Origin: an uncultured delta proteobacterium
GTDB taxonomy: Bacteria; Desulfobacterota; Syntrophia; Syntrophales; UBA8958
Reading direction: 5' to 3'
DNA length: 60,771 bases
NCBI GenBank assembly: GCA_903885795.1
Contig: CAISJV010000023.1
Location: forward strand, 1-60,771
The notes beneath the pieces are model-generated. The model searched no databases and had not been told where the DNA came from. It was given only the letters and a program-made list of their open reading frames with translations. Made by a program: the position numbers and the translations under genes. Positions 59,504 to 60,647 of the stretch are shown here, one piece after another; the first letter of the stretch is position 1, and every line of letters begins with the position of its first letter.

Positions 59504-59607
59504 GTGCGGATAATGCACGGTCTGTGCGAATAATGCACATCTTGATGAATGCCTGTTCTAAAGGTCTGTCGTGATTTCAGTAACGAATAGTGTTCGATAT
59601 TCGCACA
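59504..59607. promoter_or_regulatory. Three enhancer-like dyads TGTGC-N7-GCACA
   Basis: Site 2 (59524-59540) is a perfect TGTGC-N7-GCACA. Site 1 (59504-59520) differs by one base, and site 3 (59591-59607, TGTTC-N7-GCACA) by one base. Sites 1 and 2 share GATAAT/AATAAT spacers and start exactly 20 nt apart, two helical turns. All lie 140-250 nt upstream of a sigma-54 promoter, fitting a bacterial enhancer-binding protein. A/T-rich DNA at 59640-59720 could be bent between them. Confidence 0.6.
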
Positions 59608-59748
59608 AAAGTCACTGACTGCTATCCTTAGAATCCAAGAACTATGTTACAAATATCGACATTAATATTGAAATATACACAGCATATTAACATATAATAT
59701 ATATCAGTTATGATATTAAGAAACTTCCCGAACCCATAATTCTCACTA

Positions 59749-59764
59749 TGGCACCTAAATTGCG
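59749..59764 (+). promoter_or_regulatory. Sigma-54 (-24/-12) promoter
   Basis: TGGCACCTAAATTGCG: TGGCAC (59749-59754), 5-nt spacer, TTGC (59760-59763), with GG and GC at the required 12-nt spacing. Predicted start near 59775, leaving a leader of about 25 nt before the small ORF at 59800. Confidence 0.72.
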
Positions 59765-59799
59765 TAAAGGAAAGACAGAAGTGAGGAACAGATTTATTG

Positions 59800-60012
59800 A
59801 TGATCAAGGAGGAAAGAAATCAGCCGAAGCAGGACTCAGGCGGGAAAAAAGGTAATAAAGACAAAAAGCTTGACGGACAAATAGAGTATGATTTTTTTCT
59901 TTCTTTAGATAGCGGCAAGGTTGATCAAACGTTAACCATGGATGAAACAGGAGATCGAAAGAACAAAAAAGTGAAAAGAGATAATGGTTTAACCTTTATC
60001 TCGCCTGAGTAA
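59800..60012 (+). CDS. 70-aa charged protein of unknown function, under sigma-54 promoter
   Basis: A short frame from ATG 59800 with GAGGAAC upstream. The protein is strongly charged, with a Lys/Gln/Asp-rich N-terminal half (IKEERNQPKQDSGGKKGNK) and a slightly hydrophobic centre (IEYDFFLSLDSGK), then basic residues and LTFISPE. No domain, signal peptide or membrane helix is seen. Its place between a sigma-54 promoter and two structured RNA elements suggests it is expressed with them. Not recognised; a real but unknown gene is likely. Confidence 0.5.
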   Translation: MIKEERNQPKQDSGGKKGNKDKKLDGQIEYDFFLSLDSGKVDQTLTMDETGDRKNKKVKRDNGLTFISPE

Positions 60013-60037: not shown

Positions 60038-60077
60038 GTCGGTGGGTGGTTTTGGTCCCTCCTTTCCATCCACCGAC
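60038..60077 (+). ncRNA. Stem-loop 1 with anti-Shine-Dalgarno-like loop
   Basis: A 12-bp stem (60038-60049 with 60066-60077; GTCGGTGGGTGG/CCATCCACCGAC, one G-U) has a 16-nt loop containing GTCCCTCCTTT. CCTCCTTT equals the anti-SD end of 16S rRNA. No T-run follows, so it is not a terminator. It is homologous to stem-loop 2 in both loop and inner stem (GGNTGG/CCATCC). Confidence 0.5.
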
Positions 60078-60134
60078 CCCCTTAGTGGGCGATCTGAGAG
60101 GGAACATTTACAAAAATCCTTTCAGTTTATATAC

Positions 60135-60177
60135 AGACGGATGGTTTAAGTCCCTCCTTTTCCATCCGTCTTTTTTT
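60135..60177 (+). terminator. Stem-loop 2 with the same loop, and intrinsic terminator
   Basis: A perfect 10-bp stem AGACGGATGG (60135-60144)/CCATCCGTCT (60162-60171) with a 17-nt loop also containing GTCCCTCCTTT; seven T end it (60171-60177). It terminates the unit that begins at the sigma-54 promoter and is at the same time a second copy of the anti-SD-like stem-loop. Confidence 0.75.
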
Positions 60178-60647
60178 ATCCTAAATCTGAAGAAGCAATA
60201 CCGCCATCAGCTAATCAAGTAACACCATCAGACAATATCAACAGCTACAGTCATTGCATCTTCCCATTGGACTCCTTATATTCTATCCTTGCCATTATCT
60301 ATCTGTCTGCATCCAGATATGCAGTATGCAGGGATGCCAGCGCTACATTGTAAGCGGTAGTTGGGCGGGAAATAGTTTGGATTTTTTGTCAAAGCTTCGA
60401 ATTGAAGCTTATTCAAAAAAAATGGCCGTCTCTCCAGAAGGTGAGACGGCCATTTCATTTAAGGTATTTCCCATATTAACTTGCTGGATAACATTTGATC
60501 GATTTGATTTTATCACTCCACCCTCCTTTAAAAAAGAAAAGCACCGTTTATTGAAAACATCTACAAGTAAGCAAGCATACTAAAGTCTTCGCCTGAAAGC
60601 GAAGGTTTTTCTCCCAATCCCCGAGGGGGATGAGTATTCCGATCCAA
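60178..60647. other. Non-coding stretch between the stem-loop unit and the right-end IS repeats
   Basis: No convincing gene is seen. It contains an AAGCTTC/GAAGCTT inverted repeat (60392-60410), a minus-strand terminator-like hairpin, and a short hairpin with T-run at 60587-60610 (CTTCGC/GCGAAG then GTTTTT). Confidence 0.5.
60415..60455 (-). terminator. Intrinsic terminator for minus-strand transcription
   Basis: A 13-bp stem AAATGGCCGTCTC (60420-60432)/GAGACGGCCATTT (60443-60455) with an A-run on its left (60415-60422), which is a U-run for minus-strand RNA. A transcript coming from the right is expected; no clear gene is visible, but a ribosome-binding-like AAAGGAGG (minus strand, 60529-60522) lies upstream of it. 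Confidence 0.65.

Follow-up and report, generated by a model that had tools for sequence, protein, structure and literature searches.

A putative sigma54-dependent RNA with anti-Shine–Dalgarno hairpin loops in the order Syntrophales

The hairpins, their surroundings and their copies

The stretch of DNA analysed here (the window) comprises 60,771 nucleotides of contig C23 from an uncultured member of the order Syntrophales, and three hairpins lie near its end. Hairpin A (60038-60077, plus strand) is built from the arm GTCGGTGGGTGG, a 16-nt loop containing the anti-Shine–Dalgarno (aSD) sequence TTTTGGTCCCTCCTTT, and the arm CCATCCACCGAC, with a conserved run of C directly 3′ of it (60078-60081, plus strand). 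Hairpin B is built from the arm AGACGGATGG, a 17-nt loop containing the aSD sequence TTTAAGTCCCTCCTTTT, and the arm CCATCCGTCT (60135-60171), after which a conserved run of T extends to 60177; hairpin and T run together form an intrinsic terminator (60135-60177, plus strand). The conserved middle hairpin (60094-60125, plus strand; CTGAGAGGG...TCCTTTCAG) is without the aSD motif, which is confined to the outer two of the three.

The initial annotation had recorded two tandem stem-loops with aSD loops, the second ending in a T run, and this description is exact. GTCCCTCCTTT is present in both loops and has only two exact sites in the window, at 60055-60065 and 60150-60160; this is far from chance, with 0.06 sites expected and none of 100 shuffles reaching two. 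One should not rely on CCTCCTTT alone, which is not rare in the window (6 occurrences vs 3.1 expected, with 9 of 100 shuffles reaching 6). The 171-nt region folds at -56 kcal/mol as against -36.4 (sd 3.6) for shuffles, a z of -5.5 that none of 200 shuffles attained. A consensus scan, which permits only loops of 3-8 nt, called no terminator, and its one sigma70-like site (59687-59714) compares with 2.3 expected by chance.

Beyond what had first been annotated, there are the middle hairpin, the C run, two further copies in the genome, a sigma54 promoter, enhancer boxes and a small ORF. The promoter, TGGCAC-N5-TTGC, occupies 59749-59763 (plus strand), from which we would expect a transcript to start near 59775. 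Upstream of it lie GTGCGGATAATGCAC and GTGCGAATAATGCAC, a pair of enhancer boxes spaced 20 bp apart (59504-59538, plus strand), and a third, imperfect box, GTTCGATATTCGCAC, 88 bp after the first (59592-59606, plus strand), which is found in all three copies of this genome. The small ORF (59797-60012, plus strand) runs from TTG at 59797 or ATG at 59800 to a TAA ending at 60012, and its predicted product is a charged protein of 70-71 aa with EYDFFLS and, at the C-terminus, FISPE (relatives have FFLPE).

Searched as DNA, the genome itself gave three copies of the RNA: the one in the window and those on contigs C6 (93% identity) and C17 (88%). Judged by its context, the C17 copy looks like the parental one. 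The order there is a gene for a cNMP-binding regulator, a gene for a 720-aa GAF-GAF-AAA+ sigma54 activator, the RNA and, in the opposite direction, ychF, and many relatives have the same gene order. The C6 and window copies have 0.9 kb in common at 87% identity, and neither had an activator match in the 3 kb upstream that were examined. An integrase gene lies near the C6 copy; neither the C6 nor the C17 copy had a tRNA nearby. Downstream of the RNA on C6, on the minus strand (L015:5734-6462), is a gene for an unusual fusion protein: an EcoRV-type restriction endonuclease (Pfam E 5.1e-47) with a C-terminal match to the bacterial DNA-binding (HU) family (E 2.5e-7).

Distribution, covariation and loop constancy

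A covariance model made from the three copies of this genome (R1) matched 10 of the 11 genomes of the family and 86 of the 155 of the order, and one made from 60 sequences (R2) matched 88 of the 155, in 44 of 53 genera and 20 of 21 families, the last figure being counted from the match list. The homologous elements that a covariance-model check of the initial annotation was to look for in relatives are thus present. No genome had more than seven matches to R2 in the order search, and most had one or two. The main gap is family f12, where G034 and G035 alone match; no other genome of that family has a close activator match, although three have distant ones near E 1e-25. The one-contig genome G083 has the RNA, the small ORF and the activator gene.

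Outside the order there is little to report. A phylum-wide draw of 395 genomes gave 12 with matches, eight within the order and four outside; the strong matches were confined to the order, and the four outside it (E 0.0046-0.0084) are about the chance yield of the cut-off. It should be kept in mind that this search scored only eight candidates per genome and may have overlooked weak relatives. In named genomes, a pattern scan returned 75 stretches, which belong to Syntrophales, Syntrophaceae, Syntrophus, Syntrophobacterales, metagenome-assembled genomes (MAGs) loosely named as Deltaproteobacteria, Proteobacteria or Pseudomonadota, and one Flavobacteriales MAG (L185); viral contigs had no exact match to the hairpin pattern. 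At the gathering cut-off of Rfam 15 the window yielded tRNAs only and 10 related loci yielded nothing, and the 17 matches obtained at a relaxed threshold were all far below the gathering score.

In a 60-row alignment, 95.3% of cells are paired and 29 of 31 pairs have a double-sided change, values as high as which were not seen in any of 500 shuffles. Every pair of the middle hairpin (9/9, with 94.3% of cells paired) and of hairpin B (10/10, 97.1%) has such a change somewhere. This alignment was fitted to the structure, and the count for hairpin A was therefore repeated on an alignment made from sequence only, which took in 58 of the 65 loci; L056 was left out because its hairpin A has no CTCC, and six others because no hairpin A could be recognised. 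(Alignment A5 has 57 of 64 sources.) On the sequence-only alignment 94.2% of cells were paired and 60 had double changes, against a mean of 87.4% and 19.3 in 500 shuffles, the maxima of which were 89.0% and 32. The number of pairs with a double change (7), however, is equal to the shuffle maximum (7) and does not exceed it.

Every locus (65/65) has at least one aSD hairpin, and the number varies from one to three. From 101 hairpins, 98 were used for a profile, two false ones and one duplicate being left out. In this profile the last nine loop columns are 86-98% constant in the 66 hairpins without a T run and 88-100% constant in the 32 with one, and columns 2-4 after the hairpins without a T run are C in 94-95% of the 66. 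The initial annotation had noted, in two hairpins, covariation-like stem differences around a conserved loop, and the covariation of 29 of 31 pairs (on the alignment fitted to the structure) and the near-constancy (86-100%) of the last nine loop columns bear this out. The arms GGYGGRTGG and CCAYCCRCC are nevertheless mostly kept, variation being mainly by paired transitions, and within the 5′ arm GGTGG[GA]TGG seven of nine columns are 92-100% conserved in the 66 hairpins. The stem sequence is more constrained than pairing alone needs, which hints at a protein or other partner.

In some loci there are additional aSD hairpins, at spacings of about 80-105 nt (L066, L075, L082, L076 and L087) or about 305-425 nt (L071, L074 and L081). 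Judging by these loci, the hairpin unit multiplies.

Promoter, activator and small ORF

The exact promoter TGGCAY-N5-TTGC was observed within 450 nt upstream in 41 of the 65 loci, compared with 0.035 expected in shuffles, none in the 65 downstream controls and two in 61 controls taken further upstream. Extending the limit to 700 nt adds 11 loci with one mismatch and leaves 13 with no recognisable sigma54 promoter, one of these having just 364 nt of sequence upstream; among 117 control stretches there were no exact sites and five with one mismatch. Boxes of the form GTGC-N7-GCAC are enriched as well: the 800 nt upstream of the 65 loci hold 100, compared with 0.67 when mononucleotides are shuffled and with 7 in 196 kb taken from other parts. 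Of the 65 loci, 45 have one or more GTGC-N6-8-GCAC boxes, often two that are 20 bp apart, and in 10 loci there are three perfect boxes, the third 67-70 bp after the second. When up to three mismatches were allowed in the genome of the window, paired boxes with 0-1 mismatch were found at the three RNA copies only, all others having three mismatches, so the activator may have little other business. That these sites are used, that is, that the activator binds them and the RNA is transcribed, is inferred, there being no expression data.

The 720-aa activator encoded beside the C17 copy matches Pfam Sigma54_activat (E 2.1e-67), GAF_2 and HTH_8. Its presence was scored at E <= 1e-50, a cut-off set after seeing a gap between 2.0e-55 and 2.0e-44, and the 155 genomes divide as follows: 76 have both RNA and activator, 66 have neither, 12 have the RNA only and one has the activator only. 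In this last genome (G022) the small ORF lies at the contig edge (22-231, minus strand), so the RNA would fall off the end of the contig. The 12 genomes with RNA and no activator match include six that are more than 90% complete, five under 90%, and G131, where the C-terminal part of an activator adjoins the RNA at a contig edge (L106). The full layout of sigma54 promoter, upstream boxes and adjacent activator gene is met at the C17 copy; the window copy has the promoter and boxes, with no activator match in the 3 kb upstream.

Two groups of genomes depart from this layout. In family f13 the RNA and the activator gene sit on separate contigs in G084-G086 and are widely spaced in G083, at 584 kb and 1970 kb, and regulation in trans, as far as gene positions can tell, seems normal there. 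In G108-G113 the RNA is present and the usual activator was not found, and the loci L081, L074 and L078 (from G108, G110 and G113) have no recognisable sigma54 promoter; another mode of control may have taken over.

The hairpins are preceded in 43 of the 65 loci by an ORF for a charged protein in which FF[LIVSF] occurs one to three times, typically as EYDFFLS in mid-protein and FFLPE at the end. The figure derives from 44 loci with FF ORFs, after the removal of L058, L079 and L111 (spurious by position or sequence) and the addition of two profile matches, L065 and L103. With the starts that were chosen, 40 of 41 measured ORFs encode 58-84 aa and one encodes 42 aa, though one should remember that these start codons are guesses. 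Over 44 ORFs there are 69 FF motifs vs 3.8 in shuffles, an excess that is partly built in, as the ORFs were picked for the motif; the second motif and the alignment are not built in. Within the genus, dN/dS is 0.15-0.43 in 20 of 21 pairs (seven of its nine loci, L023 and L096 being left out), and the one exception, 1.33, involves a single synonymous change. The small ORF is under purifying selection within the genus.

What the small protein does can only be inferred. Its profile matches in 39 of 154 genomes, and 44 of the 45 matches, compared by eye, adjoin the RNA; the remaining one ends 22 nt from a contig end. No match was found in Pfam (2 members scanned) or NCBIfam (21 members scanned), and the one match among solved structures (E 0.99) was taken as chance. 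The paired FF motifs have no ligand motif that we know of.

At 14 loci (L054, L056, L058, L062, L063, L073, L080, L083 with two, L086, L092, L108, L109 and L111) the promoter lies 50-177 nt before the matched element and no FF ORF follows it; the promoters of L092 and L108 have one mismatch each. These loci indicate that the hairpin RNA is kept for its own sake. Eight more (L057, L061, L071, L074, L078, L079, L081 and L088), with neither an FF ORF nor a near promoter, remain undecided. The initial suggestion of a small RNA, or the structured 3′ end of an mRNA, that pairs with ribosome-binding sites is the best supported interpretation, and both halves of it seem true, with an ORF at 43 of 65 loci and none at 14.

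What the RNA may do

The explanation that we favour, and that we think has somewhat better than even prospects, is that the hairpins form the regulatory 3′ end of a Syntrophales RNA that depends on sigma54, and that their loops pair with strong Shine–Dalgarno (SD) sequences without Hfq. Transcription would be started by a dedicated enhancer-binding protein of the GAF-GAF-AAA+ type, bound to the GTGC-N7-GCAC boxes; its gene lies immediately upstream of the copy presumed to be parental and does not adjoin the window copy. The predicted transcript would encode a small protein of about 70 aa in most lineages and continue into structured hairpins, one to three of which would expose UCCCUCCUUU in an open loop. 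These loops would most likely base-pair with strong SDs (AAAGGAGGG) of mRNAs encoded elsewhere and lower their translation, and the co-transcribed small ORF would escape, being mostly without an SD. Both the pairing and the targets are inferred, no target having been identified, and so is the preference for mRNAs over the other possibility raised initially, that the loops sequester a regulator.

What evidence there is for pairing should be interpreted with caution. An SD-like 4-mer precedes the small ORF in 5 of 41 cases vs 26 of 28 for ychF at the same loci, a difference to be expected of an RNA that acts on SDs and has to spare its own message. This contrast rests on one neighbouring gene and is weaker against a wider set: of the window's 34 long ORFs, 17 have the 4-mer if the longest start is taken and 24 if any start in the first quarter is allowed. 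In 460 kb of the genome of the window, perfect complements to the loop of at least 7 nt occur at the ribosome binding sites (RBSs) of 32 of 307 ORFs with the longest start and of 48 with the best start, compared with 1 of 307 inside genes; this excess largely reflects SD usage. The match of the loop to the 16S 3′ end of Syntrophales genomes themselves is our assumption, and a search for the 16S-tail pattern GGCTGGATCACCTCCTTT found it in none of 16 genomes, the one-contig genome G083 included; rRNA may be missing from the sequences searched, or the tail may differ. With the Pfam model, no Hfq was found in 154 genomes of the order, as against 5 of 14 control genomes, and the order seems, on this evidence, to lack it.

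Several observations sit uneasily with the SD-pairing explanation: the stems are conserved in sequence, unlike the highly differing stems of NfeR1-type RNAs; 12 genomes with the RNA, six of them more than 90% complete, have no activator match; at 13 of the 65 loci no sigma54 promoter can be recognised within 700 nt; the small ORF, whose start is a guess, may itself pair with the loop through its first 40 nt; and the sequence-only alignment has no more pairs with double changes than the best shuffle.

RNAs with aSD loops, among them the CcsR RNAs, are known from alphaproteobacteria, and the cuckoo RNA family is defined by its loop motif, CCUCCUCCC. In the part of the source available, CIN1 loci are described as co-transcribing a gene for a 71-aa DUF1127 protein with several CcsR small RNAs and as ending in a Rho-independent terminator (PMC10253847), and an excerpt of another has the CCUCCUCCC motif in print for Sinorhizobium RNAs (PMC3927594). 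The likeness to CcsR proposed in the initial annotation holds for architecture, in that a small ORF of about 70 codons, tandem hairpins downstream of it and a terminator at the end are all met in the window. The Syntrophales loops, however, are UCCCUCCUUU and not CCUCCUCCC, the small protein is no DUF1127 protein (Pfam 0/2, NCBIfam 0/21), the promoter is of the sigma54 type whereas CcsR has RpoHI/RpoHII, the stems are conserved in sequence, and the phylum is another.

As far as the accessible text goes, NfeR1 and SmelA075/SmelA099 of Sinorhizobium have three (or four) hairpins with the aSD motif in their loops (PMC10746234, PMC3927594), a likeness to our RNA, and NfeR1, of the alpha-r14 family, pairs with the translation start of ntrB (PMC10746234). 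RBS pairing by aSD loops therefore has precedents in NfeR1 (PMC10746234) and the cases named in the excerpt of PMC3927594. The alpha-r14 RNAs have CCUCCUCCC in every hairpin, whereas the window RNA has UCCCUCCUUU in the outer two of three; NfeR1 has, in the same partial source, an RpoD-type promoter and an NtrC repressor (PMC10746234); and its stems differ highly, whereas those of Syntrophales covary and mostly keep GGYGGRTGG/CCAYCCRCC. Because loop motif, small protein, stems and promoter differ, the RNA is not a member of the CIN1 or NfeR1 groups, and the best reading by analogy is that it may work like the alphaproteobacterial aSD-loop RNAs (CcsR, NfeR1) without being one of them.

The staphylococcal RNA RsaE pairs with RBSs through a C-rich loop, and the staphylococcal small RNAs with C-rich loops are independent of Hfq. 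RNAIII is named for aSD-type loop pairing with RBSs in the available part of PMC3927594. RNAIII and RsaE resemble the Syntrophales RNA in their C-rich or aSD loops, and differ in host and regulation. Another regulatory RNA located at an mRNA 3′ end is known from Enterobacteriaceae, where a small RNA is released from the 3′ UTR of the nitrogen-regulated glutamine synthetase mRNA (PMC9731577, seen in part); the parent mRNA there encodes glutamine synthetase, and no aSD hairpins are mentioned in the accessible part of that source.

If the SD-pairing explanation is true, these syntrophic anaerobes gain a regulatory RNA of wide occurrence, together with an activator and a small protein, and the layout of a small ORF plus aSD hairpins outside the alphaproteobacteria suggests a recurrent design for Hfq-free translation control. 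Among the literature matches listed, neither this RNA nor any other small RNA in the group is described; most subscription journals were outside the search. A more ambitious version, which we put forward only tentatively, has one dedicated sigma54 activator driving a dual-function RNA in an order seemingly without Hfq: the RNA would encode a charged small protein with paired FF[LIV]S motifs and throttle many mRNAs with strong SDs at once through hairpins that mimic the aSD end of the ribosome, sparing its own SD-less ORF, its stem and loop would be read by an unknown RNA-binding partner (possibly the small protein), and its origin would be independent of the alphaproteobacterial CIN1 loci.

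The conserved stem is also the main reason to consider a sponge, in which the hairpins titrate an RNA-binding protein or a ribosomal component that normally meets the 16S tail. In the CbrB-CrcZ system of Pseudomonas the activator gene likewise adjoins the RNA gene. The available portions of the papers concerned describe crcZ as activated by CbrB with sigma-N through three upstream activator subsites (PMC6296734) and CrcZ as acting on Hfq (PMC4063720). Our locus recalls CrcZ/CrcY-CbrB in its putative sigma54-dependent RNA, three upstream sites and adjacent activator gene, and the presence of one to three hairpins per locus and of extra gene copies would suit titration as well; yet the CbrB subsites are non-palindromic whereas the Syntrophales boxes are palindromic, and Hfq, on which CrcZ acts, had no match in the 154 genomes. 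With no candidate protein found, the SD complement as the most constant part of the loop, and a small ORF mostly without an SD, we regard a sponge as unlikely.

It is less likely still that the hairpins act only in cis, as a 3′ UTR that terminates, stabilises or autoregulates the small-protein mRNA. The first 40 nt of the small ORF pair better with the loop than the rest does (mean -9.9 vs -7.0 kcal/mol), which makes self-pairing possible, and the small-protein profile hardly occurs away from the RNA (44 of 45 matches adjoin it, the other ending 22 nt from a contig end). Against this, promoter and hairpins persist at 14 of 65 loci where the ORF is missing, and termination requires no second hairpin and no constancy of the loop. 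Chance similarity or a DNA repeat of the REP/MITE type deserves almost no credence, for although one genome has three copies, two sharing 0.9 kb at 87% and one lying near an integrase gene, there are at most seven matches per genome (mostly one or two) across 20 of 21 families, with covariation and coupling to a promoter and activator.

Two minor features follow the hairpins in the window. A strong inverted repeat, AAATGGCCGTCTC ... GAGACGGCCATTT, stands after an A run at 60420-60455 and could be a terminator for the minus strand, and the very end of the contig (60649-60771) holds repeated CCGCCACCCGA-like stretches, which may mark the end of an insertion sequence at which the assembly broke off.
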